Positions 52,069 to 63,984 of a stretch of 64,000 bases of DNA are shown in pieces; the stretch's first letter is position 1; each line of letters opens with the position of its first letter. The notes under the pieces were generated by a model, which saw only the letters and a list, made by a program, of their open reading frames with translations, was not told the DNA's origin and made no database searches. A program made the position numbers and the translations under genes. Origin of the DNA: Quadrisphaera sp. RL12-1S (GTDB taxonomy: Bacteria; Actinomycetota; Actinomycetes; Actinomycetales; Quadrisphaeraceae). The stretch spans positions 62,001 to 126,000 of the forward strand of contig NZ_JACNME010000012.1 in assembly GCF_014270065.1 (NCBI RefSeq), in the 5' to 3' direction.

Positions 52069-52896
52069 GTGATCCACCTCGACAGCCCCGACGACCCGCG
52101 CCTGGTCGACTACACCGGCCTCACGGACGTGGCCCTGCGCCGCGTCCGCGAGCCCGCCGAGGGCCTGTTCATCGCCGAGTCCAGCCAGGTCATCCGGCGC
52201 GCGCTGCACGCCGGGCACCGGCCGCGCTCCCTGCTGACCGCGCCGCGCTGGCTGCCGGACCTCACCGACGTCCTCAGCGCCTGCGAGGACGCCGACGCCG
52301 AGGTGTTCGTGGCCGAGGAGCCCGTGCTCGAGGCCATCACCGGCTTCCACGTCCACCGGGGCGCCATCGCCTCCATGCACCGCCCGGCGCCCGCGCCCGT
52401 GGCGGACCTGCTGCGCGGCGCGCGGACCGTCGTCGTCCTGGAGGACGTCGTCGACCACACCAACGTCGGCGCCGTGTTCAGGTCAGCGGCCGGGCTCGGC
52501 GTGGACGCCGTGCTCGTGACGCCGCGCTGCGCCGACCCCCTCTACCGCCGCAGCGTGCGCGTCAGCATGGGCACCGTCTTCCAGGTGCCGTGGACCCGCA
52601 TCGACCCCTGGCCGGCCGGCATCGAGGCGCTCACGGCGGCCGGCTTCCACGTCGCAGCGCTCGCCCTGTCCGACGACTCCGTGGCCCTGCAGGACTTCGC
52701 CGCGCACCGCCCCGACAGGCTCGCCCTCCTGCTCGGCACCGAGGGCGCGGGCCTGACCCCCGCCAGCGTCGCCGCCGCCGACACCGTGGTGCGCATCCCC
52801 ATGCACGGCGGGGTGGACTCCCTCAACGTCGCCGCCGCCAGCGCCGTCGCCTTCTGGGCCCTCGGCGCCGACGCGGCCGGTCCCCCGCCGGCGTAG
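52069..52896 (+). CDS. TrmH/SpoU-family RNA 2'-O-methyltransferase
   Basis: A 275-aa SPOUT enzyme. The N-terminal L30e-like RNA-binding part is about 1-110 (GLFIAESSQVIRRALHAGHRPRSLL). The trefoil-knot catalytic part has VVVLEDVVDHTNVGAVFRSAAGLGVDAVLV (Asn and Arg of motif 1), LALLLGTEGAGLTPASVAAADTVVRIPMHGGVDSLNVAAASAVAFW (motifs 2 and 3). It methylates rRNA or tRNA ribose using SAM; the exact site is unknown. Members include rRNA Gm2251 and thiostrepton-resistance enzymes. Its own promoter lies in the hairpin loop upstream. Confidence 0.9.
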   Translation: MIHLDSPDDPRLVDYTGLTDVALRRVREPAEGLFIAESSQVIRRALHAGHRPRSLLTAPRWLPDLTDVLSACEDADAEVFVAEEPVLEAITGFHVHRGAIASMHRPAPAPVADLLRGARTVVVLEDVVDHTNVGAVFRSAAGLGVDAVLVTPRCADPLYRRSVRVSMGTVFQVPWTRIDPWPAGIEALTAAGFHVAALALSDDSVALQDFAAHRPDRLALLLGTEGAGLTPASVAAADTVVRIPMHGGVDSLNVAAASAVAFWALGADAAGPPPA

Positions 52897-53377: not shown

Positions 53378-54067
53378 TCACATCGCCTCTTTGACGCCCC
53401 TGCGGATCAGCCACCAGTTCATCGGGTAGCTCGTCAGGTAGCCGATGCACATCCCCACCGCCATGAGGAACCAGAACGCGGCGCTGTCCGGGCGCAGCGG
53501 GTCGGCGGGGAAGAGCGCGAATCGCATCACGGCCATCCACCCGAACAGGCCCACCTCGAAGGCCGTCAGGCTCAGCACGTCCGCCTTGAGCGCCTCCCAC
53601 AGGCCCTCGGCCACCCCGAGGTCCCGCATCGGGGCGATGGCGAAGTACTGGAAGACCACCCCCAGGGCCAGGGCGAGCACGTAGCTCCAGAAGAACTCCG
53701 CGTACAGGTGCTCCCCGAACAGCTCCCAGCCCAGCAGGAAGACACCGGTCTCGGCGATGATGTCCCCGAGGGTGCACCCGGCTCCGCAGTGGGTCACCCC
53801 GACGGCCACCGAGGCCCAGAACGGCTTGCCGGGCATCTTCCCGCCGTTCGCCTCCGCGGCCCGAGCGGTGGAGGCGCGCCCCCAGCGGAGGTAGGCCCAC
53901 ACCGCCAGCGGCCCGGCGTACAGTGCTGTGACCGGCCACACCCACTCCATCACCGCCATCCGCTGGCGCCAGCCCGCCACCCGGGCGTCGTAGACGATCC
54001 ACGCCGCGCAGAGGAATGCCACGGTCAGCGCCGCCCACGACAGGACGGTCAGCCATGCAGGTGCCAC
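53378..54067 (-). CDS. DUF4396 membrane protein with THCGAGC motif
   Basis: A 229-aa protein with about six helices. The conserved DUF4396 core WVWPVTALYAGPLAVWAYLRWG, then VGVTHCGAGCTLGDIIAETGVFLL (His, two Cys and Asp in a membrane context) and the C-terminal FLMAVGMCIGYLTSYPMNWWLI are intact. The His/Cys set could bind a metal or a thiol-reactive ligand. DUF4396 genes often lie beside metal or redox systems; that is family knowledge of low depth. I chose GTG 54067; ATG 54124 is the alternative. It ends the minus-strand operon after the FAD oxidoreductase. Confidence 0.8.
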   Translation of the reverse strand: MAPAWLTVLSWAALTVAFLCAAWIVYDARVAGWRQRMAVMEWVWPVTALYAGPLAVWAYLRWGRASTARAAEANGGKMPGKPFWASVAVGVTHCGAGCTLGDIIAETGVFLLGWELFGEHLYAEFFWSYVLALALGVVFQYFAIAPMRDLGVAEGLWEALKADVLSLTAFEVGLFGWMAVMRFALFPADPLRPDSAAFWFLMAVGMCIGYLTSYPMNWWLIRRGVKEAM

Positions 54068-54167
54068 AGCGAACGATCGTGCGGTGAGTGTTCGGGGAGC
54101 GCATCTTCGGCACGTTGATGACATCGGGACTCATGTGCCGCATCCGCGGGCGACCTCACATCGCTGA

Positions 54168-55259
54168 TCACCTCTGTCGGTAGGAGCGCAGCCACCTCTC
54201 ATCGATGCGCCGCTTGAGGTGCAACGGCGCGCGGCCGTACCACCACCAGCGGCCGCGCACGGCCATTCCGACACCCGCGCCGAGGTCGAGGACCGCCAGC
54301 GCGCGGTGCTGGGGCCGGTACTGCGGAAGCGGCTGACCGCGCCGGCGGGCCAGGAGGCTTTTGAGTAGGACGGGCCCCTGCCGCACGCCGTGCACGCCGA
54401 TGCGTGGCAGCGGCTGGGGCAGGAAGTGCGCGCAGTCGCCGGTGGCGTAGACCTCCTCATGATGAACGTGCTGGAGCGTCGCCCGCACCGGTATGCCGCG
54501 CTCGTCACCCAGACCCAGCCGGTTGAGCAGCGGCGGTGCTGCCAGCCCGGTCGCCACCAGAGCGACGTCGTGCTGACTCGTGCTCCCGTCGAGGTATGCG
54601 ACCTCGGCTGCGCTCACGCGTGTGACCTGACAGCTGGTGCGCACGTCGACACCGCGCCTCTCCAGCAGCGCCGCCAGCCGCCGACGCGCCCCGTCCGGCA
54701 GGTCAGCGCCGATGGTGGGCCCGGCTTGCAGCAACCGGACCCGGGCCACGTCGGGCCGCACTGACAGGTGCGCCGCCAGCTCCAACCCCGTCGAGCCGCC
54801 TCCAAGGACGGTGACGCTGGCGCCGGACCCGTCGATGGCGCTGGGTGAGGCGCGCAGGCGGGCATCGAGGTCGCTCAGCTCCGTCAAGGGCTTGACCTTG
54901 AGCACGCCAGCGTCGACGTCGATCCCGGGGAGCGCCACGACGCTGCCGATGGCCATGCACAGCACGTCGTAGGGAAGCTGCGCCCCTTCGGAGGTCATGG
55001 CGAGCCTGCCCTGAAAATCCAGGCCGACCATGGTCCCCTCGTGCAGCTGCACCCCGTGGGAGGTGGCCAGGGCAGCCACGTCGATGCGTCCAGCTCCGGC
55101 GGGCAGGGCCCCTGCGGCTGTGGCCGATGCCATGCCGCTGTAGTGGAAGTAGCGGGGCGCCAGCAGGTGCACTCGGTAGCCCGCCGCACGCAGCACTGCT
55201 GCGCGGCGCAGGAGGTGCAGGTGGCTGTGGCCGGCGCCCACCAGCAGGACGGTGGTCAC
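54168..55259 (-). CDS. FAD-dependent pyridine nucleotide oxidoreductase, NDH-2/SelD-fusion type
   Basis: A 363-aa flavoprotein. The FAD-binding start is VLLVGAGHSHLHLLRRAA; the GHSH variant is typical of the oxidoreductase fused to some SelD proteins and of related stand-alone enzymes. The NAD-binding motif is SVTVLGGGSTGLELAAHLS, and the C-terminal FAD motif is EVYATGDCAHF. There is no CxxxxC disulfide, so electrons pass from NAD(P)H to a quinone or unknown acceptor. The C-terminal RGRWWWYGRAPLHLKRRIDERWLRSY is amphipathic and may dock on the membrane, as in NDH-2. GTG 55259 overlaps the upstream stop (GTGA). Confidence 0.82.
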   Translation of the reverse strand: MTTVLLVGAGHSHLHLLRRAAVLRAAGYRVHLLAPRYFHYSGMASATAAGALPAGAGRIDVAALATSHGVQLHEGTMVGLDFQGRLAMTSEGAQLPYDVLCMAIGSVVALPGIDVDAGVLKVKPLTELSDLDARLRASPSAIDGSGASVTVLGGGSTGLELAAHLSVRPDVARVRLLQAGPTIGADLPDGARRRLAALLERRGVDVRTSCQVTRVSAAEVAYLDGSTSQHDVALVATGLAAPPLLNRLGLGDERGIPVRATLQHVHHEEVYATGDCAHFLPQPLPRIGVHGVRQGPVLLKSLLARRRGQPLPQYRPQHRALAVLDLGAGVGMAVRGRWWWYGRAPLHLKRRIDERWLRSYRQR

Positions 55260-55927
55260 GGGCGACCACTTGCTGCTGGCCTGCGCAGGAGGCGGTAGCC
55301 CGTGATGATCCGCTGGGTGGCGCTGAGGGCCACCACCGCGGCCCAGGCCCAGGCGATCTGCTCCGCCCAGAAGGGCACCAGGCACCAGGCGGTGTGCACG
55401 AGCACGGTCTCGGTGCCTTCGGCCAAGCCGCCCAGGAAGGACAGCGACCGCCCGTCGTCGATGTGGTGGCCGGTTCGTTCGGCGATGGAGGAGAAGGCCA
55501 GGAACGTCGAGCCGTTGACGTAGTAGGTCAGCATGACCAGCAGGAACGGCAGCAGTGAGGCCCCTTCGGTGCTGACGCCCACTCCCACGCCCACGACGAA
55601 GGCGCCGTAGACGGTGAAGTCCGCGGCGATGTCCAAGAAGCCGCCGGCCTCGCTGGGGGGAACACCTCGCTGTGCGGCGTTTTCGCTGTGGAGGGCCGTG
55701 CGGCGCCGCCGGGCGAGGGGACCGTCCAGCCCGTCTGCGGCACGGGACAGCAGCCACAGCGCCAACGCGGGTGCCCACAGCCCGCCCGCGGCCGCGCCGG
55801 CGCCGACCAGCCCCAGGGCCAGACCGGCGATGGTCAGCCGGTCGGGTGTGACGTGCGGCCGGTCCAGGACACCGGCAGCGCGGCCCAGCGGGCCCTGCAG
55901 CAGTCGGCGGGCGGTGCTGTCGAGCAT
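55256..55927 (-). CDS. CDP-alcohol phosphatidyltransferase (YnjF-like)
   Basis: A 223-aa membrane enzyme. The family motif D-x2-D-G-x2-A-R...G-x3-D-x3-D is present as D65, D68, A72-R73, G95, D99 and D103. The gap between AR and G is 21 residues instead of about 8, filled by a polar insert (TALHSENAAQRGVPPSEA). It joins an alcohol head group to a CDP-diacylglycerol lipid. The enzyme is shorter than PgsA and has about six helices. ATG 55927 shares its A with the stop of the VTT gene (TGATG). E. coli YnjF is the nearest named relative by context. Confidence 0.82.
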   Translation of the reverse strand: MLDSTARRLLQGPLGRAAGVLDRPHVTPDRLTIAGLALGLVGAGAAAGGLWAPALALWLLSRAADGLDGPLARRRRTALHSENAAQRGVPPSEAGGFLDIAADFTVYGAFVVGVGVGVSTEGASLLPFLLVMLTYYVNGSTFLAFSSIAERTGHHIDDGRSLSFLGGLAEGTETVLVHTAWCLVPFWAEQIAWAWAAVVALSATQRIITGYRLLRRPAASGRP

Positions 55928-56685
55928 CAGGTGCCGTCCCGGCCGTTGGTGGACTTCGCCTGTCGAGCAGTTGGAGAACTGGGACGCGTCGCTGACAGGT
56001 CCTTCGGCCTTCGGTGGCGCCGTCGGGCCGCCACAGCGGCGACCAGGGTCAACACGACCAGGACGGCGGTGGCCGTCAGGAACGGCAGCGATGTGGGATC
56101 GGTGCCGTAGGCGCCCAGGGCCACGAAGGCCAGGGTGCCGGGAAGGATGCCCACCGCGGTGGCGAGCAGGTAGCTGCCGAAGCGCACGGCGGTGAACCCG
56201 CTGGCGTAGTTCACCGCGGTGAACGGCACCACCGGGACCAGGCGCAACCCCAGCACGGCGAACAGGCCGTGGCGCTGCACGAGGTCGTCAACGCGCGCCA
56301 GGTGCCCGCGTGTCAGCCGGGTAGCGGCATCGCGCCCCAGCAGGCGAGCCAACCAGAAAGCCATCCCCGCCCCGACCACGGCCGCCGCCCAGACGACGGC
56401 GGCACCCAGCGGCAACCCGAAGACCGCCCCTGCTGCAGCGGACATCAGGCTCTTCGGCAGCGGCGCGAGGGTCGCTGCGGCGTAGACAGCCCCGAACAGC
56501 AGCGGAGCCCATGGGCCGGAGACCAGCGCACTGTTCGAGCCGGGGCCAGCGCCAGGGCTCGAGCCGGGCAGGGGCAGGCGCGAGGCGATCACGGCCGCGG
56601 CGGCCACCAGGGCGACCAGCAGCAGAGGGCGAGCCCATGTCCGCCACGCAGACCGGACCGGACCCGGAGTGGGTGCTGCCGGCAC
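55927..56685 (-). CDS. TVP38/TMEM64 family (VTT domain) membrane protein, YdjX/YdjZ-like
   Basis: A 252-aa membrane protein. After a basic N-terminus and one helix, the VTT core reads APLPKSLMSAAAGAVFGLPLGAAVVWAAAVVGAGMAFWLARLLGR. The later RLVPVVPFTAVNYASGFTAVRFGSYLLATAVGILPGTLAFVALGAYG is the second hallmark. VTT proteins are scramblase-like and related to DedA; in several bacteria they are encoded with or fused to MerA-like flavoproteins. The last 40 residues are basic and soluble. I chose GTG 56685, with AAGGAG 5 nt upstream. First gene of the minus-strand operon. Confidence 0.87.
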   Translation of the reverse strand: MPAAPTPGPVRSAWRTWARPLLLVALVAAAAVIASRLPLPGSSPGAGPGSNSALVSGPWAPLLFGAVYAAATLAPLPKSLMSAAAGAVFGLPLGAAVVWAAAVVGAGMAFWLARLLGRDAATRLTRGHLARVDDLVQRHGLFAVLGLRLVPVVPFTAVNYASGFTAVRFGSYLLATAVGILPGTLAFVALGAYGTDPTSLPFLTATAVLVVLTLVAAVAARRRHRRPKDLSATRPSSPTARQAKSTNGRDGT

Positions 56686-56737
56686 GGCGGCTCCTTCGAT
56701 GGTGGTCGGCGTGGGCCGGGTCGACCAGCGCCAGTGC

Positions 56738-56768
56738 GGGAAGGCCGTGGCGGTGCTGTTGTGTTCCC
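56738..56768. promoter_or_regulatory. GGGAA-N21-TTCCC dyad in the divergent island promoter region
   Basis: On the plus strand GGGAAG (56738-56743) is followed after 19 nt by GTT (56763-56765), the spacing of a SigR-type ECF promoter (GGGAAT-N18/19-GTT). A mirror-image GGGAAC starts on the minus strand at 56768. It lies between the VTT start (56685) and the YnjB-like start (56831). Control by the ECF sigma factor of this island is a hypothesis. Confidence 0.35.
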
Positions 56769-56830
56769 ACACCACCACAGCTGATCACGCCGCCCGGTGT
56801 GACGGCGCCATCTTCCAGGAGGCCAGCGCA

Positions 56831-58123
56831 GTGCCCACCGCCCACCAGGTCCCACGGCGAGCGCTCAGGTCGAGGAAGGTGCGTGTCACGGCGCTGGTCC
56901 TTGCGTGCGCCGGCTTGCTGGCGGCCTGCGCCGGAGCCGAACCCGGCCCGCAGCCGCAGGAGTCAGCGAGCGGCGGCGGTGGAGCTCAGAGCTGGGAGCA
57001 GGTGATGGAGGAGGCCCGAGGCCAGACGGTCGACCTGTGGATGTACGGCGGGGACCAGAAGGGCAACACCTACGTCGATGAGGTCCTCGCCCCGGCGGCG
57101 GCCGAGCTCGGGGTCACCCTGCGCCGGGTGCCTGTGGCCGACACCGCCGACGCGCTCAACCGCGTGCTGTCCGAGCTGCAGGCCGGGCGCCGCGACAGCG
57201 GGAGCGTGGACCTGGTCTGGGTCAACGGGGAGAACTTCCGCAGCGGCCAGCAGGCCGGTGCCTGGCTGTGCGGGTGGACCAGCCAGCTGCCGAACATGCG
57301 CTACACCGACCCAGCCGACCCGCTGCTGAGCAGCGACTTCGGAACACCGGTCCAGGGATGTGAGGCGCCGTGGCACAAGGCCCAGTTCGTCCTGGCCTAC
57401 GACTCCGCTGATGTGACCGACCCGCCCAGGTCGGTGGAGGAGCTGTTCGCCTGGGCCAGGCAGCACCCGGGCAGGTTCACCTACCCCGCGCCCCCCGACT
57501 TCACCGGCTCGGCCTTCCTGCGGCAGGCGCTGTACGCCAGCGCCGGGGGCCAGGGCGAGGTTCCGGCCGACTACGACGAGGCCGCCTTCAACGAGCTCAC
57601 CCCCGCGCTGTACCAGCAGCTGCTCGACGTGGCGCCCAGTCTGTGGCGCTCTGGCCAGACCTACCCGCGTGACCTGGCCCAGCTGGAGGACCTGTACGCC
57701 TCCGACCAGGTCGACATCACCATGACCTACGGCCCGGCCACCCTGGAGGACGCCGTCGCGCGGGGCGTCTTCCCCGCATCGACCCGAGTCCTGGGCCTCG
57801 AAGGGGGCACCCTCGGCAACGCCAGCTTCCTGGCGGTCCCGGTCAACGCCGGTGACCGGGCCGCCGCCCAGGTGGTCGCCGACCTGGCGCTGTCGCCACA
57901 GCAGCAGCTGGCCAAGGCACGCCCAGAGGTGTGGGGCCAGTACACCGTCCTGGACCAGGACCGGCTGCCCGAACAGGTCCGCCAGGACTTCGCCGCCCTG
58001 CCGACCTCCCAGGTGGTGCCATCCTTCGCCGAGCTCTCCCGGGGGGCGCTGCCGGAGCTGGGTGCCGGGTGGGTCGCCCCGCTGGAGGACGGGTGGCGCA
58101 CCACGGTCCTGCCCGGGCGATGA
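56831..58123 (+). CDS. YnjB-like ABC transporter substrate-binding lipoprotein
   Basis: A 430-aa exported lipoprotein. The basic start VPRRALRSRKVR precedes a hydrophobic stretch and the lipobox LLAAC (Cys33). The mature part carries the YnjB hallmark SVDLVWVNGENFRSGQQAG, then LPNMRY and PAPPDFTGSAFLRQAL. It belongs to a thiamine/spermidine-like periplasmic-binding superfamily but is a distinct branch with unknown ligand. AGGAGG at 56817-56822 lies 8 nt before GTG 56831. It leads a four-gene ABC operon with ATGA/GTGA overlaps. Confidence 0.87.
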   Translation: MPTAHQVPRRALRSRKVRVTALVLACAGLLAACAGAEPGPQPQESASGGGGAQSWEQVMEEARGQTVDLWMYGGDQKGNTYVDEVLAPAAAELGVTLRRVPVADTADALNRVLSELQAGRRDSGSVDLVWVNGENFRSGQQAGAWLCGWTSQLPNMRYTDPADPLLSSDFGTPVQGCEAPWHKAQFVLAYDSADVTDPPRSVEELFAWARQHPGRFTYPAPPDFTGSAFLRQALYASAGGQGEVPADYDEAAFNELTPALYQQLLDVAPSLWRSGQTYPRDLAQLEDLYASDQVDITMTYGPATLEDAVARGVFPASTRVLGLEGGTLGNASFLAVPVNAGDRAAAQVVADLALSPQQQLAKARPEVWGQYTVLDQDRLPEQVRQDFAALPTSQVVPSFAELSRGALPELGAGWVAPLEDGWRTTVLPGR

Positions 58124-58989
58124 GCCGCACCCGCTCCCGCGGGCGGGCCGGGCTGCTGGTGCTGCCCGCGGTGGTCCCCACGGTGGCGGTCCTGGGGGCC
58201 GGCACCGGCGTGGCCCTGCTGCAGAGCACCGGGCTGATGCCCCTGGTCGGGGCGCCGGAGGCGACGACGGCGACGTACCGGATGCTGGCCGGGGATCGTG
58301 CCTTGCGAGACGGACTGGTCATCTCCCTGGGCGTGGCCACGGCCAGCACGGTGCTGGCGGTGGTCATCGGGGTGGGCGTGGCACTGCTGGTGCGCACCAC
58401 GCGCGCCGGCGGACGCCTGCTGCACCTGGCGGCAGCAGCGACGGTGCCGGTACCCCACCTCATCGGCGCTGCCGCGGTGGGACTGCTGCTGGCCGACTCG
58501 GGCTTGCTGGCCAGGGTCCTGGGCCTCGGGCCGGACTCCTTCCCGCCCCTGGTCGCAGGACCGTGGTGGGTGGCAGTGGTGGCGGAGTACGCCTGGAAGG
58601 AGTCGGCCTTCGTCGCGCTCGTGGTGCTGGCCGCGGTCGCTGTCCACGAGCGGGAGCTGGACGAGGCTGCGGCAGTTCTGGGTGCTGGACCCTGGCAGCG
58701 GCTGCGGCGGGTCTTCCTGCCGCTGGCCGCTCCCGCCGCGACTGCGGCCGGGGGCATCGTGTTCGCCTACGTGGTGGGTTCCTACGAAGTGGCGTGGCTG
58801 CTGGGGCGCACCTACCCCGAGCCCTTGCCGGTGCTGGCCTACCGGCTGTACAGCGACGTCGACCTGGCGAGCCGCCAGGAGGCGATGGCGGTCGCGCTGA
58901 TGACCACGGCCCTGTCGGTCACCGCGCTCGTGGTGACCGCGGCGCTGCTGCGCCGCAGCGCCGCAGTGCGCTCCGGGGACCTGGTGTGA
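58120..58989 (+). CDS. ABC transporter permease, first (YnjC N-half-like)
   Basis: A 289-aa BPD permease with about six helices. The ATPase-contact EAA loop is ERELDEAAAVLGAGPWQRLRRVFLPLAAPA. Together with the next gene it makes the two-permease set that in E. coli is one long protein, YnjC. ATG 58120 overlaps the lipoprotein stop by 4 bp (ATGA). The second gene overlaps its end the same way (GTGA). Confidence 0.87.
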   Translation: MSRTRSRGRAGLLVLPAVVPTVAVLGAGTGVALLQSTGLMPLVGAPEATTATYRMLAGDRALRDGLVISLGVATASTVLAVVIGVGVALLVRTTRAGGRLLHLAAAATVPVPHLIGAAAVGLLLADSGLLARVLGLGPDSFPPLVAGPWWVAVVAEYAWKESAFVALVVLAAVAVHERELDEAAAVLGAGPWQRLRRVFLPLAAPAATAAGGIVFAYVVGSYEVAWLLGRTYPEPLPVLAYRLYSDVDLASRQEAMAVALMTTALSVTALVVTAALLRRSAAVRSGDLV

Positions 58990-59801
58990 GCGCGCCCGCC
59001 GGCACGCGGGTCGAGCCGACCGGTCGCCGGGTCCTGCGGGACTCGGCCACCGCTGCGGCCGCGATCGCGCTGGTGGTCCCGCTGCTGGCTCTGGCGCTGT
59101 GGGCGGTGGCTGCTCGCTGGCCCTTCCCGGAGGTGCTGCCCACCACCTGGGGGCTGGCGGGGTGGCGAGAGGTCCTGGCCCAGGGGGCCCTGCCCGCCGC
59201 GGGACGCTCGACGGTGCTGGCTCTGGGGGTGGCGCTGCTGGCCACCCCCGCGGGGGCCCTGGCCGGTCGTGCCCTGGCCGGGCGTCAGGTGCCGCTGGCC
59301 CGTCTGGTCGAGGGCGTGCTGATCGCCCCGGTGGCCGTGCCACCCTTCGCCGTGGTGATGGGGCTGAACATCGTGGCGCTGCGGGTGGGCCTGCCCGCCA
59401 CCGCGGCGTTGGTGGTGGTGCTCGTGGTGGCCGCCCTGCCCTACACGACCTGGGTCATGCGCTCGGCCTACGCCGGGTACGACCGCGGCTATGAGGACGC
59501 CGCCCGAAGCCTGGGGGCCGGCCCCGGCCAGGTGCTGTGGCGGGTGCACCTGCCGCTGATCGCTCCGGCGCTGGCCGCCGCCGCGTTCCTGGCGTTCCTG
59601 GTGGGGTGGAGCGACTACGTGGTGACCCTGGTGGTGGGTGGTGGCCAGCTGGTCACCCTCCCGCTGCTGGTGGCTTCCTTGTCCGCCGCCAGCGGCAACG
59701 ACGCCGCCGTGGCTGCTGCGTCACTGGCCGCTGTCGCGCCGCCGCTGGTCCTGCTGGTCATGACCGGGCTGCTCGCCCGTGGGCGAGGGGGTGAGCGGTG
59801 A
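58986..59801 (+). CDS. ABC transporter permease, second (YnjC C-half-like)
   Basis: A 271-aa BPD permease with six helices. The EAA loop is YDRGYEDAARSLGAGPGQVLWRVHLPLIAPAL. WSDYVVTLVVGGGQLVTLPLLV near the end is typical of spermidine/thiamine/iron-type importers. GTG 58986 overlaps the first permease by 4 bp and its stop overlaps the ATPase start by 4 bp, so all four ABC genes are translationally coupled. Confidence 0.87.
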   Translation: MSAPAGTRVEPTGRRVLRDSATAAAAIALVVPLLALALWAVAARWPFPEVLPTTWGLAGWREVLAQGALPAAGRSTVLALGVALLATPAGALAGRALAGRQVPLARLVEGVLIAPVAVPPFAVVMGLNIVALRVGLPATAALVVVLVVAALPYTTWVMRSAYAGYDRGYEDAARSLGAGPGQVLWRVHLPLIAPALAAAAFLAFLVGWSDYVVTLVVGGGQLVTLPLLVASLSAASGNDAAVAAASLAAVAPPLVLLVMTGLLARGRGGER

Positions 59802-60916
59802 GCGCGGCGTGTGGACCGGTGCGAGGGCACCTGCGTCTGGAGGGACTGCGCCGCGCCTTCCCCGGCGGGCAGGCTCCCGTGCTGGACGGTCTCGACCTGG
59901 ACGTGCCCGCCACGGGGTCCGTGGCACTGCTGGGGCCCTCCGGCAGCGGCAAGAGCACCACGTTGCGCCTGGTCGCGGGACTGGACACCCCTGATGCTGG
60001 GCGGGTGGTCCTCGATGGTCGTGACCTGACCCGGGTGGCCCCTGAGCAGCGGCGGATGGCCATGGTCTTCCAGCGGCCGCGCCTGTTCCCCCACCTGGAC
60101 GTGCGTGACAACGTCGCCTTCCCCCTGCAGGTCGCCGGCGCGCCCCGGCGCCGGGCCCGCACGGATGCTGAGCGGTTCTTGGACCTGGTGGGTGCCGGTG
60201 AGCTCCTGCGGCGCCGGCCGCGCTCCCTGAGCGGTGGCCAGGAGCAGAGAGTCGCTCTGGCGCGCAGCCTGGCGGCCCGGCCGCAGGTGATGCTGCTGGA
60301 CGAGGCGTTCAGCGCCCTGGACCCCTCGGTGCGCTCGGAGATGCATGAGCTGCTCAGCGAGCTGCGCGCCACCGTCGAGACGACGCTGCTGCTGGTCACC
60401 CACGACAGGCACGAAGCGGCTGCCGTGGCTGACACCGTCGCGGTGCTGCTGGAGGGGCGCCTGGCCCAGCACGGGCCCATCCAGGAGCTGCACACCAGGC
60501 CCGCGACGCTGGCGGTCAGCCGCTTCCTGGGAGGGCTGAACGAGGTCAGCGGTCACGTGGACCGCGGCGCCCACGTCTCCGAGCTCGGCCAGCTCGCTCT
60601 CCCAACGGGCGCTACCAGAGCTGTCTCAGCCGGTGCTGCCGTGCTGCTGGTGCGCCAGGAGGCGGTGCGGCTGGTGGCGCTCGACGACCCCACCGCCGAC
60701 GCCTTCGGCAGCGTCACGGGCATCAGGTCCCGCGGGGCGCGTGCACTGGTGGAGGTGGCCACCGCTGCCGGACCGCTGCACGCCGAGCTCCCACCAGGAC
60801 AGCACCCGCGTCTTCGACAGCAGGTGGGCCTGGTGCTGCCGGTCGACCAGCGCTGGGTGGTGCCGGCCGCGGCCGATGGCACTCCCGCGCTGCCGGACGT
60901 CGCCGAGCGGGTCTGA
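59798..60916 (+). CDS. ABC transporter ATP-binding protein (YnjD-like)
   Basis: A 372-aa ATPase. Walker A LLGPSGSGKSTTLRL, Q-loop VFQRPRLFPHL, signature LSGGQEQRVALARS, Walker B VMLLDEAFSALD and H-loop LLVTHDRHEA are intact. The C-terminal 130 residues form a TOBE-like regulatory domain, which E. coli YnjD (about 217 aa) lacks. It drives import with the two permeases. The operon ends 11 bp before the stop of the convergent flavoprotein gene, with no terminator visible. Confidence 0.9.
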   Translation: MSAACGPVRGHLRLEGLRRAFPGGQAPVLDGLDLDVPATGSVALLGPSGSGKSTTLRLVAGLDTPDAGRVVLDGRDLTRVAPEQRRMAMVFQRPRLFPHLDVRDNVAFPLQVAGAPRRRARTDAERFLDLVGAGELLRRRPRSLSGGQEQRVALARSLAARPQVMLLDEAFSALDPSVRSEMHELLSELRATVETTLLLVTHDRHEAAAVADTVAVLLEGRLAQHGPIQELHTRPATLAVSRFLGGLNEVSGHVDRGAHVSELGQLALPTGATRAVSAGAAVLLVRQEAVRLVALDDPTADAFGSVTGIRSRGARALVEVATAAGPLHAELPPGQHPRLRQQVGLVLPVDQRWVVPAAADGTPALPDVAERV

Positions 60917-60927
60917 GGTCTCGGCTC

Positions 60928-62502
60928 TCAGCCCGCCAGGGGGGAGTCCAGCCACCGTCGCCGCGCCGCCAGCAGCAGCCGGGTGGCACGTGCCAGGGGC
61001 CCCTCGCCCAGGGACTGCCTGACATCACTCACCGCGGCGTTCCAGACGCCGTCGCTGAAGGTCGGATAGGCGTGGGTGGCAGCTGCGAGGTCACGCGTGC
61101 GCAGGCCCTGGCTCAGCGCCAGCACCACCTCCCCCAGGCTCTCCCCGGCCCTGGGCCCGACGATCGTCGCGCCGACGATGCGGGACCTGCGGTCGAGCAC
61201 CAACCGGGTGAAGCCCTCGCGGCGGTCCTCGGTGACGGCACGGTCGAGGTGAGCGTGCTCGACCGTGACCGTGCGCAGGCCCTCCGGCAGGTGCGGACCG
61301 CTGGGGACCCCGACCGCGGCGACCTCGGGGTCGGTGAAGGTGACCCGAGGCACGATGCCGTCGGTGCGTCGGCGCAGGCCCAGCACGGCGTTCGTCGCTG
61401 CCAGCGAACCGTGCACACCGGCCAGGTGGGTGAACGGCGGGTGCCCGGTGACGTCACCAGCGGCCCAGACACGAGGGTTGCTGGTGCGCAGGTGCCCATC
61501 GACGCGCACGTGCCCGCGCTCGTCGAGGTCCACCGCGGCGTGCTGCAGCCCCAGGCCAGCGGTGCGCGCAGAACGCCCCAGGGCCACCAGCAACCGGTCA
61601 TAGGGCAGACGGGTCCCGTCATCCAGGACCACGCCTCCGCTGCCGTCGCCGCTGGGCTCGACGGCGCTGGCACGGGTCTGGGTGCGGACGTGGACGCCGT
61701 CGCGTTCCAGCGCGGCGCGGACCACGGCCGAGGCGTCGGGGTCCTCGCGTGCCAGGAGGTGCTCACCGGAGTGGAGCAGGGTGACCTGCACGCCCAGGCG
61801 AGCCAGGGCCTGCCCGAGCTCGCAGCCGATGGGGCCGCCACCCAGCACCACCAGACGCCGTGGCAGCTTCGGCATCGCCTCCAGGTGCGACCACAGGTCC
61901 TCACTGGTCAACGCGCCGGCGCTGGCAAGGCCAGGCAGGTCAGGGACGGTGGGGGCTGACCCGGTCGCGATCAGCGCCTGGCGGAAGGTCAGGGCTCGTC
62001 CGTCCACCGAGGCGGTCCGCTCACCTGTGAACACCGCCCGCCCGGCCATCACCTGGGCGCCGGTCTCACGGATGGAGTCGGGGGAGTCCTGCGGCTCGAT
62101 CGTCTCGATGGCGCTGCGCCAGTGCTGGGCCAGGCGGGGCAGGTCGACCTCAGCCGCGGCCCCGGCCACCCCGAGGTGCTCGTGGCGGTCCACCTCCGCG
62201 GCGCGGGCCGCGGCCGCGACCAGCGACTTCGAGGGCACGCAGCCGGTCCACAGGCAGTCCCCGCCCGTGCGGTGGCGCTCCACGAGCACCACCCGTGCTC
62301 CGAAGCGGGCAGCGGTCTTGGCGGCGACCAGGCCTGCGGTGCCGCCACCGACCACGAGCAGGTCCCACGGGTCCTGCCCATCGGCGGTGGCCGTGGTGGC
62401 TGCGGTGGCCGGTGTGGTCGAGGTCGTTGACGAAGGTGGGGTCGAGGGCGCCTGTGCAGGGTCAGCGGGGGTGGCTGTCGTGGACGTCGTGGTGGGGGTC
62501 AC
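60928..62502 (-). CDS. MerA-like class I pyridine nucleotide-disulfide oxidoreductase
   Basis: A 524-aa flavoprotein. A Thr/Pro/Ala-rich tail of about 44 residues comes first. Then FAD motif LLVVGGGTAGLVAAKTA, the redox-active disulfide GGDCLWTGCVPSK (C83, C88), NAD(P) motif VVLGGGPIGCELGQALA, the FAD motif VWAAGDVTG and the active-site HAYPTFSD. There is no N-terminal HMA domain and no C-terminal Cys pair, so it is not a classic mercuric reductase. It probably reduces a thiol/disulfide partner, perhaps the AhpD-like protein of the same operon. GTG 62502 has AGGAGG 6 nt upstream and overlaps the anti-sigma stop by 4 bp. Confidence 0.87.
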   Translation of the reverse strand: MTPTTTSTTATPADPAQAPSTPPSSTTSTTPATAATTATADGQDPWDLLVVGGGTAGLVAAKTAARFGARVVLVERHRTGGDCLWTGCVPSKSLVAAAARAAEVDRHEHLGVAGAAAEVDLPRLAQHWRSAIETIEPQDSPDSIRETGAQVMAGRAVFTGERTASVDGRALTFRQALIATGSAPTVPDLPGLASAGALTSEDLWSHLEAMPKLPRRLVVLGGGPIGCELGQALARLGVQVTLLHSGEHLLAREDPDASAVVRAALERDGVHVRTQTRASAVEPSGDGSGGVVLDDGTRLPYDRLLVALGRSARTAGLGLQHAAVDLDERGHVRVDGHLRTSNPRVWAAGDVTGHPPFTHLAGVHGSLAATNAVLGLRRRTDGIVPRVTFTDPEVAAVGVPSGPHLPEGLRTVTVEHAHLDRAVTEDRREGFTRLVLDRRSRIVGATIVGPRAGESLGEVVLALSQGLRTRDLAAATHAYPTFSDGVWNAAVSDVRQSLGEGPLARATRLLLAARRRWLDSPLAG

Positions 62503-62777
62503 CGGTGCTCCTCCTGGGTCAGGCGTTCGAGAAGGGCGGCCATCCGTCGTACGACGGCGGGGTCTGGCGCCTGGCGCTCGGACCACCCGCGCAGCGCGCG
62601 CTTCACCAGGCGGCTCTCCTGAGCGGCCTGCTGGCAGCGGCGGCACACAGCCAGGTGCTGCTCCAGGCGTCGCGCCTGCGGCGCCGGCAACGGCGCTGCG
62701 GGATCTGCATCCAGATAGCGCTGCAGGCGGCGGGCGGACCAGTGGCAGGTCAGCATGGTGCGTACGGCTGAGATCAC
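62499..62777 (-). CDS. Zinc-binding anti-sigma factor (ZAS), RsrA-like
   Basis: A 92-aa protein with the full ZAS pattern: C11, then H41-x3-C45-x2-C48 (QHLAVCRRC). RsrA of Streptomyces has the same spacing (Cys, then His-x3-Cys-x2-Cys) and releases SigR when its cysteines form a disulfide. Length and helical tail also fit. GTG 62777 overlaps the sigma stop by 4 bp, the normal sigma/anti-sigma pairing. It should hold the ECF sigma factor inactive under reducing conditions; redox control is inferred from the cysteines. Confidence 0.82.
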   Translation of the reverse strand: MISAVRTMLTCHWSARRLQRYLDADPAAPLPAPQARRLEQHLAVCRRCQQAAQESRLVKRALRGWSERQAPDPAVVRRMAALLERLTQEEHR

Positions 62778-63445
62778 GGCGTGCTCCTCGAGCGGTCCAG
62801 CGTCGGGCGCAGCTGGTGGCGCAGCCGTGCCCGGGCTCGGCTGAGCCGGGACATGACCGTGCCGACCGGGACGCCGATGACCTGCGCGGCCTCGGTGTAG
62901 CTGAGCTGGTCGACGTCCACCAGCAGCAGCACCTGCCGAAAGCGCGGGTCCAGTGAGGCCACCGCCACCTCCAGCTCCTCTTCCAAGACCATGGCCAGGA
63001 CGTCATCCTCGGCGCTGTCGGGGCTGACTGCCCCGAACGCCGGGCGAGCCCCGTCGAGCTCCCTGACGTCCTCCACGACGTCGGGCCGGCGCCTGCGGTG
63101 CATGTTGAGGTGGGTGTGGCGCAGGATCGTGAGCAGCCAGGCCCGCGGGTGTCTCCCGTCGAAGCGGTCGACTGCTCTGTAGGCGCGCACCAGCGTCTCC
63201 TGCACGAGGTCTTCGGCGTCCACCGTCGAGCCCGTCACCGTCCGAGCCACCCTCAGCAGCACCGGGATCTCCGGCTCCACGTGCTGGGCGAAGACGGCTG
63301 ACCTGTCCAGGGAGGTGTCCCGTTGTCCAGGCACGTGTGAGGCATCCGCTGGCACCTGCTCATCCTTCCCGGTGCTGGACGTCGGCTGGCGCGTGGCGAT
63401 CCGTGGCCCCGGCGGGTGGGTGTCCCCGCCGGGGCGGGGGCTCAC
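62774..63445 (-). CDS. ECF-type RNA polymerase sigma factor
   Basis: A 223-aa sigma-70 family factor with region 2 (VARTVTGSTVDAEDLVQETLVRAYRAVDRFDGRHPRAWLLTILRHTHLN) and region 4 (SLDPRFRQVLLLVDVDQLSYTEAAQVIGVPVGTVMSRLSRARARLRH), joined by a short linker. There is no C-terminal SnoaL domain, so it is not ECF41. The first 45 residues are a disordered extension. GTG 63445 overlaps the AhpD-like stop (GTGA). It likely controls its own operon and perhaps the two facing operons. Confidence 0.9.
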   Translation of the reverse strand: MSPRPGGDTHPPGPRIATRQPTSSTGKDEQVPADASHVPGQRDTSLDRSAVFAQHVEPEIPVLLRVARTVTGSTVDAEDLVQETLVRAYRAVDRFDGRHPRAWLLTILRHTHLNMHRRRRPDVVEDVRELDGARPAFGAVSPDSAEDDVLAMVLEEELEVAVASLDPRFRQVLLLVDVDQLSYTEAAQVIGVPVGTVMSRLSRARARLRHQLRPTLDRSRSTP

Positions 63446-63984
63446 AGGCCAGGCGCCAGCGGCATGTCCAGGTCGGTCTGCACCAGGTGGTTGAAGTGGT
63501 TGGTGAAGAGGTTCAAGGCGATGTGGACCGAGACCTCGGTGAGCTCGACATCGCTCCAGCCGGCCTCCAGCGCCGCCTGCCAGGTGCGGTCATCGACGTT
63601 GCCCTTGGCTCCGGCGGACTCGCGCACGAGCGCCAGCAGCGCTTCGAGCTTGGGGTCGAAGTCGACCGCTCCGGTCCGGATGGCCACCGTCTGCTCCTGG
63701 GTGAACCCGGCCCGCACGGCGGAGACGGTGTGCGCAGACTGGCAGTACGTGCAGTCGTCGACGTTGCCCACGACCAGCGCGATGGCCTCGCGGGTGGCGG
63801 CGTCGAAGGTGCCCAGGTCGGTGATGACGCGCTGGAGGGCGACGTAGGACTGCAGCACCACCGGGGAGTGGGCCATCGCCCCGTGGATGTTCAGCACCGT
63901 GCCGAAACGGGCCTGCAGCCCCTTCAGCGCGTCGCGGCTGGCTTCGGGGGCGTCAGCAGGGGTGTGGACGGGCACTCGGGACAT
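63442..63984 (-). CDS. AhpD-like / carboxymuconolactone decarboxylase family protein (YnjA-like)
   Basis: A 180-aa all-helical protein. TREAIALVVGNVDDCTYCQSAHTVSAVRAGF gives the AhpD active site: Glu66, C78-x2-C81 and His85. Such proteins are peroxidases or thiol adaptors that take electrons from a disulfide reductase. GAGGAG lies 6 nt before ATG 63984. It heads the operon AhpD-like - ECF sigma - anti-sigma - MerA-like reductase; only 16 bp upstream are in the window, so the operon promoter is outside. E. coli YnjA is the context counterpart. Confidence 0.88.
   Translation of the reverse strand: MSRVPVHTPADAPEASRDALKGLQARFGTVLNIHGAMAHSPVVLQSYVALQRVITDLGTFDAATREAIALVVGNVDDCTYCQSAHTVSAVRAGFTQEQTVAIRTGAVDFDPKLEALLALVRESAGAKGNVDDRTWQAALEAGWSDVELTEVSVHIALNLFTNHFNHLVQTDLDMPLAPGL

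Follow-up and report, generated by a model that had tools for sequence, protein, structure and literature searches.

A three-operon island around a YnjBCD-type importer in Quadrisphaera sp. RL12-1S, with lipid and redox genes and a candidate sigma switch

What might an importer of the YnjBCD type do beside genes for lipid and redox enzymes? The question is raised by a compact gene island of Quadrisphaera sp. RL12-1S, found in a stretch of 64,000 nucleotides (the window; bases 62001-126000 of the 132,486-base contig NZ_JACNME010000012.1, in a genome of 4.62 Mb coded G000). Positions beyond 64,000 lie on the same contig, with the window numbering carried on past the window end, and papers are cited here by accession. 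The island (53378-63984) is comprised of twelve genes in three operons, four on the minus strand, four on the plus strand and four again on the minus strand. All twelve adjacent genes described by the initial annotation were found in place, and 8 of the 9 junctions between same-strand neighbours are overlaps of 1-4 bp, with a single exception, a 43 bp gap between the DUF4396 and flavoprotein genes. The YnjBCD importer is a known orphan, given as an uncharacterised transport system as of 2022 (PMC9207381), and no function was found assigned to YnjB, YnjF or their Escherichia coli locus in the parts of the open-licence literature searched by gene name. As judged by sequence comparison, the recurring set is YnjBCD together with YnjF-like, VTT and MerA-like proteins, across phyla, and the ATP-binding cassette (ABC) operon of the island shares a putative SigR-like extracytoplasmic function (ECF) promoter signature with the operon encoding an AhpD-like protein, a sigma factor, an anti-sigma factor and a reductase. 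The reading favoured here, to which we give an even chance of being correct, is that the island came by horizontal transfer and is a module for thiol stress and membrane remodelling, switched by its sigma factor.

The importer, its partners and their recurrence

Family assignments were made with Pfam for the first 10 proteins and with NCBIfam for all 12, the sigma gene being additionally checked separately; the twelve proteins were also compared with 15 E. coli K-12 proteins from the ydj-ynj region (NC_000913) by BLASTP and phmmer. The solute-binding lipoprotein (SBP; 56831-58123, plus strand) is a member of the YnjB family, matching YnjB at 39% over 371 columns (E 3e-79) and scoring 467.3 bits against the NF008633 cut-off of 203. 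Two permease domains (PF00528; 58120-58989 and 58986-59801) and an ATPase (PF00005; 59798-60916) follow in the same plus-strand operon, where the permeases correspond to one half of YnjC each, the first to residues 33-237 (E 8e-8) and the second to residues 388-507 (E 3e-8), and the ATPase matches YnjD at 35% (E 1e-23). The predicted SBP structure has a model pLDDT of 90, and its fold matches are scattered over binders of sugars, polyamines, iron, dinucleotides and glycerophosphocholine. Since the best matches bind so many ligand classes, no ligand is claimed for the SBP, and assignment from the fold was dropped despite the good model. A sequence search of the PDB gave no match for the SBP at E<=0.01, nor for the CDP-alcohol protein described next at E<=1.

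The first minus-strand operon encodes the putative lipid enzymes. The CDP-alcohol phosphatidyltransferase (55256-55927) is YnjF-like, with 34% to E. coli YnjF (E 5e-31); it misses the PF01066 gathering score (17.3 against 22 bits), and its catalytic motif D-x2-DG-x2-AR ... G-x3-D-x3-D is whole and invariant in 21 of 21 aligned sequences (the window and 20 loci). Upstream lies the VTT/DedA membrane protein (55927-56778; PF09335, 93.9 bits), the true start of which may be ~90 bp further in, judged by eye. It resembles the COG0398 (TVP38/YdjX-like) DedA proteins in its VTT domain and its best E. coli matches, YdjZ (35%, E 6e-26) and YdjX (32%, E 9e-21). About 90% of COG0398 DedA proteins are single-domain, and the commonest fusion otherwise is to the MerA-like class of disulfide oxidoreductase (PMC10127716); VTT-reductase fusions exist elsewhere, whereas in the island VTT is a separate gene. 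The operon also encodes an FAD/NAD(P) oxidoreductase (54168-55259) resembling TIGR03169, the N-terminal partner of SelD (202.9 bits, the cut-off of 310 not being reached), with homologues in the neighbourhoods L045, L046, L053, L104 and L108, and it ends with a DUF4396 membrane protein (53378-54124; PF14342, 144.6 bits).

Two further redox proteins are encoded by the second minus-strand operon. The MerA-like FAD pyridine nucleotide-disulfide oxidoreductase (60928-62502) shares with the mercuric reductase/dihydrolipoyl dehydrogenase family its FAD, NAD and dimerisation domains and a CxxxxC motif, both Cys of which are invariant in 12 of 12 sequences. It departs from that family in bearing HxYP, where lipoyl dehydrogenases carry HxHP, and in scoring below the cut-off in the 25 NCBIfam rows listed (410 bits for PRK06370.1-3 and 353.5 for MerA being both sub-cut-off). 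MerA requires a C-terminal cysteine pair, and none is present here; with this absence and a score of 353.5 against the TIGR02053 cut-off of 454.45 bits, identity as mercuric reductase is ruled out. The AhpD-like peroxidase-related protein (63442-63984) exceeds the TIGR00778 cut-off and contains the AhpD motif E...CxxCxxxH.

Recurrence was followed in a 36-locus phylum set and an 80-locus set (the best 80 of 286), counted apart, with taxonomic groups assigned by hand. Of these 116 neighbourhoods 115 were counted, L077 being left out for want of an SBP match; L073/L095 and L069/L087 each appear to be one contig that is present in both sets. One step of the neighbour-gene comparisons left out 25 Enterobacterales, and another omitted 24 of these from its locus counts. 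Genes in other loci were called with a simple reading-frame caller, which missed the VTT and anti-sigma genes in the window. Within 10 kb of YnjB, a YnjF-like gene was found in 12 of the 13 long actinobacterial loci and in the 1 short one, in 12/13 Bacillota and 2/2 Chloroflexota (80-locus set), in all 25 Enterobacterales, which are closely related to each other, and in 15 of 35 loci of the phylum set. At the same distance, MerA-like genes occurred in 12/13 long actinobacterial, 4/13 Bacillota and 2/2 Chloroflexota loci, in 0/25 Enterobacterales, 1/26 other Proteobacteria and 16/35 of the phylum set, and VTT genes in 9/13, 11/13, 1/2, 24/25, 1/26 and 15/35, respectively. A sigma gene was this close in 8 of 13 actinobacterial loci of the 80-locus set and in 2/35 of the phylum set. 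DUF4396 gave no match at E<=1e-6 in the other neighbourhoods fetched, and AhpD-like or YnjA genes lay within 10 kb of YnjB in the 25 Enterobacterales and one Marinobacter locus. The conserved module of the initial annotation is thereby narrowed: the importer, YnjF-like, VTT and MerA-like genes recur in Actinomycetota, Bacillota and Chloroflexota, while DUF4396 and the AhpD-like gene fall outside the set.

The same association is seen across 396 genomes of the phylum, where YnjF-like proteins occur in 28 and YnjB in 37, both in 22, and <=10 kb apart in 16. Fisher values ignore phylogeny, and the count by genus is fairer: YnjB is present in 14 of the 18 genera with a YnjF-like protein, with ~1.6 expected (21 of 237 genera overall). 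Six genomes carry a YnjF-like gene without YnjB (L170, L172, L173, L175, L176 and L177), with a MerA-like gene in the stretch in 5/6 and VTT in 2/6. Three of these loci are contigs of only 3-7 kb, so the importer is possibly just cut off; L170 and L173 are on long contigs.

Several other genes were seen beside YnjB. In 13 loci (e.g. L055:7275-8264, L137:2283-3362 and L146:4752-5915), two of which, L071 and L137, have VTT, a gene resembling APH/choline kinases lies near YnjB without a YnjF-like match, a neighbour that may hint at an alcohol as YnjB ligand. A radical SAM protein is encoded close to the module in 13 actinobacterial loci (two probably the same contig; e.g. L082:4059-5486) and in L170; NCBIfam gave no match to its representative at E<=0.001, and the host genome contains no match to it. 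Just before YnjB in seven Bacillus-group loci (L092, L094, L098, L099, L100, L102 and L103, ~9.0-9.7 kb) is a PrdB/GrdB-like gene with an in-frame TGA at the same place in 7/7 (NPG-stop-YICH), which fits a candidate UxxC selenoprotein. Near YnjBCD in L110 and L146 is a common four-gene block resembling BufA/B/C with DoxX, possibly a metal-binding peptide system.

The sigma factor and its promoter signature

The ECF sigma factor (62774-63445, minus strand) was placed by profile matches and a tree in an island-type subfamily. It misses the SigR model TIGR02947 (92.3 bits against a cut-off of 251.55), and the host genome also encodes a genuine SigR (360 bits). In the midpoint-rooted tree, twelve island-type sigma factors cluster together, separately from the host genome's five other sigma-family proteins, SigR included, with a group support of 87/96 that is under the tool's starred level. 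The anti-sigma factor (62499-62777, minus strand) is of the ZAS (zinc-binding anti-sigma) type, being just over the PF13490 cut-off and bearing an RsrA-like motif, Cys...HxxxCxxC (Cys11, with HxxxCxxC at 41-48), in a Cys/His layout similar to that of RsrA; against TIGR03988 (RsrA) it scores 21.1 bits, below the cut-off of 62.5. The pair is akin to SigR-RsrA in joining an ECF sigma factor to a ZAS anti-sigma factor and in having a promoter signature near the SigR/SigH consensus, and unlike it in falling below both curated cut-offs and in the separation of its sigma factor from the SigR of the host. SigR recognises GGGAAT(G/C)-16 nt-(C/G)GTTG, a consensus quoted in PMC3489674.

The island signature, GGAA[G/T]-N17/18-[G/T]GTT, was derived from upstream regions of sigma-bearing loci and counted at spacers of 10-26, sites being near-start when they lie between 30 bp inside and 150 bp before a start. 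In the first nine loci with the sigma gene, which helped define the signature, 38 matches were counted at spacers 17-18, 26 of them near-start, against 18 at the 15 other spacers combined, and the reversed signature gave no spacer peak. Eleven loci whose stretch holds no sigma gene (L069/L087 apparently being the same contig, and some genomes, G370 and G289, holding an island-type sigma on another contig) had 10 matches at spacers 17-18, 4 near-start, and 22 at the 15 others. Ten later-fetched loci, picked for a sigma or YnjF-like gene and serving as the sole hold-out, having had no part in defining the signature, held 22 matches at spacers 17-18 versus 8 at 11 other spacers. Ten of these 22 are in L170, and L170, L171 and L183, the only ones with a sigma gene in the stretch, hold 16; many of the matches are not close to a matched gene, and L172, L173 and L182 have none.

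Across the host genome, the signature occurs 15 times and its reversed control 5 times, and 2 of the 15 sites are at the island. One (GGAAG-N18-TGTT; 56739-56765, plus strand) lies 66 bp before the SBP gene and the other (64041-64066, minus strand, just outside the window) 57 bp before the AhpD-like gene, such that both predicted promoters precede the operons named above. The chance of 2 of 15 sites falling in 13 kb is P ~8e-4, with both island sites having been seen before the genome count. A site upstream of the SBP gene is also present in L079, L081, L084 (where it is 312 bp ahead of the predicted start) and L085, and loci of Promicromonospora, Streptomyces and Kineosporia are among those with such a site. 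The genes behind sites across loci include those for the sigma factor, SBP, MerA-like protein, a methyltransferase and, in Streptomyces L081, an ArsM-like protein. A conserved element on the VTT strand of the VTT/SBP gap was considered as a VTT promoter and rejected, being the reverse complement of the SBP site. Of the control of the island by its own redox sigma factor, as first proposed, the sequence supports a separate sigma subfamily and the signature before the ABC and sigma operons; for the VTT operon, the signature search found no site.

In the 37 genomes of the phylum that carry YnjB, the top sigma matches adjoin it only in G000, G236 and G378. The sigma gene of L170 is accompanied by genes for MerA-like, YnjF-like and radical SAM proteins, a mycoredoxin-like protein and a protein presumably CcdA-like (no NCBIfam match at E<=1e-5), and that of L183 by thioredoxin-like and PrdB-like genes, the mycoredoxin-like, thioredoxin-like and PrdB-like matches being below curated cut-offs. 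These thiol-redox neighbours in relatives point to thiol or disulfide stress.

Relation to the E. coli locus and origin of the island

The likeness to E. coli ydjXYZ-ynjABCDEF that was initially suggested is borne out by homologues of YnjB, YnjC, YnjD, YnjF and YdjX/YdjZ together at one locus; it fails for YnjA, to which the AhpD-like protein has no match at E<=1, and for YdjY and YnjE, which have no counterpart among the twelve island proteins at the same threshold (BLASTP and phmmer throughout). The two loci differ further in that the island is divided into three operons, has its permease split in two, and adds the MerA-like, TIGR03169-like and DUF4396 proteins and the sigma/anti-sigma pair, while its AhpD-like protein is without detectable homology to YnjA. 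FNR directly activates E. coli ydjXYZ-ynjABCD (PMC3688515), and a Crp/Fnr-family gene follows the island. In addition, BaeR weakly induces ynjAB (PMC2731931), PdhR binds upstream of ydjX (PMC7660256), and genetic interactions place ynjABCDEFI in a cluster with the Suf system of iron-sulfur assembly (PMC3930520). This regulatory and genetic evidence bears on the island indirectly.

The island was probably acquired horizontally from another bacterium, as its distribution among relatives suggests. YnjB is present in 2 of 59 relatives, namely the host genome and one of the same order, and is found in none of seven genomes from other genera of the family. Its absence from the five other genomes of the genus makes acquisition probable. 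A TrmH-like methyltransferase gene before the island (52069-52896) occurs in 6 of 6 genus genomes, and DNA similarity to the five relatives stops at ~52.9 kb; from there to the contig end, no match was found to the fetched relative stretches (blastn E<=1e-15, pieces >150 bp). Beyond the TrmH-like gene, these stretches run on for 13-15 kb in four relatives and, in the fifth (L167), for 3 kb. No right border of the island was found up to the contig end in this comparison.

Beyond the window, the island is followed on the contig by genes for a small membrane protein (64640-65113) and the Crp/Fnr regulator (65199-65870). Homologues of both lie beside the module in the Kineosporia locus L093, and a homologue of the regulator adjoins the MerA-like gene in Bacillus and Pontibacillus loci (L096 and L115). 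At the contig end, a transporter-like reading frame occurs twice in head-to-tail order (68987-70006 and from 70133).

Proposed function and its meaning

The favoured mechanism would begin with oxidation of the zinc anti-sigma factor, which would free the sigma factor to transcribe the ABC operon and its own. The YnjBCD importer may then take up a small polar solute; the CDP-alcohol transferase would link an alcohol head group, perhaps the imported solute or a derivative, to CDP-diacylglycerol, and the VTT protein would plausibly carry the lipid to the other side of the membrane. Disulfides or other thiol-reactive species would be reduced, and damage so repaired, by the two flavoenzymes (MerA-like and TIGR03169-like) together with the AhpD-like protein. 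In favour of this proposal are the E. coli homologies, the recurrence of the set, the promoter signature, the separate grouping of the island-type sigma factors, the thiol-redox neighbours of that sigma type in relatives and the COG0398 fusions to disulfide oxidoreductases. Several observations weigh against it. The VTT operon is without a site, as noted, L089 has a sigma gene and no near-start site, near-start sites occur in L061 and L066, whose retrieved stretch holds no sigma gene, and the genuine SigR of the host could read the island promoters. A YnjF-like gene is near YnjB in only 1 of the 26 loci from other Proteobacteria (one Pseudodesulfovibrio included), so the importer can occur without lipid genes, and in eight f19-family loci the ABC genes accompany a kinase-like and a weakly nucleosidase-like gene, with no YnjF, VTT or MerA match. 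It also counts against the proposal that the imported solute, the lipid made and the inducing stress are the parts of it that we infer.

If the operons simply arrived together, the sigma factor might regulate its own operon alone, or SigR of the host might drive all of the sites; the similar SigR consensus (PMC3489674), the presence of a true SigR and the sites of L061 and L066 fit this explanation, which is nevertheless considered unlikely. Loci with the sigma gene hold far more near-start sites (26 in nine loci against 4 in eleven without it), L078, L080, L090 and L091 have neither a sigma match nor a site (in L090, relaxing the pattern yields one ahead of the MerA-like gene), and the site upstream of the SBP gene is shared by the window with loci of three other genera. 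Doubtful, though the likeliest of the alternatives, is that the island is a thiol or metal stress set in which YnjBCD supplies sulfur, a metal or a cofactor precursor, with the CDP-alcohol and VTT proteins serving general membrane repair and no special lipid being made. The mycoredoxin-like, thioredoxin-like, PrdB-like and AhpC-TSA_2 neighbours in relatives, the clustering of E. coli ynjABCDEFI with Suf (PMC3930520) and the lack of a YnjF-like gene near YnjB in 25/26 loci of other Proteobacteria are consistent with this. Even without YnjB, however, the YnjF-like gene still adjoins a MerA-like gene (L170 and L173) or both MerA-like and VTT genes (L172, 22 kb), which argues for a specific lipid step.

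It is very unlikely that the island itself makes arsenic or metalloid lipids, whereby the CDP-alcohol transferase would phosphatidylate an arsenosugar-like head group and the reductases would handle trivalent metalloids. The idea draws on Streptomyces L081-L083 (0-16 kb), which add ArsM-like, MTAP/PNP-like, TIGR04282, TIGR04283 (over cut-off) and two radical SAM genes, on the sigma motif before the ArsM-like gene of L081, and on the presence of YnjB in 17 of 38 phylum genomes with TIGR04283, mostly of the f19 family (a hand count). Yet TIGR04283 adjoins YnjB in only 1/38 genomes (G196), and the ArsM-like protein scores 196 against a cut-off of 263. Neither TIGR04283 (E<=1e-30) nor the neighbouring radical SAM protein C25, itself not ArsS by NCBIfam, finds a match in the host genome, which is why an arsenosugar lipid is not adopted as the leading explanation; the arsenic-lipid gene link appears only in some relatives. 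A bolder form of the sigma-switched module, put forward as rather improbable, is that an inducible pathway for an undescribed, redox-responsive phospholipid is under a SigR-like sigma factor of its own; in this pathway YnjBCD would fetch a head-group precursor, the YnjF-like enzyme attach it, VTT flip the product and a membrane-coupled dithiol flavoenzyme keep it reduced, some Streptomyces extending the pathway to metalloid (arsenic) lipids.

The portions of the open-licence literature searched gave no description of this gene set under an ECF promoter signature of its own. The island appears to be a regulated version of an E. coli-like set, and it offers three handles that are absent from E. 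coli, namely a promoter signature that would tie a regulon together, a sigma/anti-sigma switch from which the inducing condition could be predicted, and recurrence of the set in several phyla. With these handles, the role of this widespread set of orphan genes becomes directly testable.

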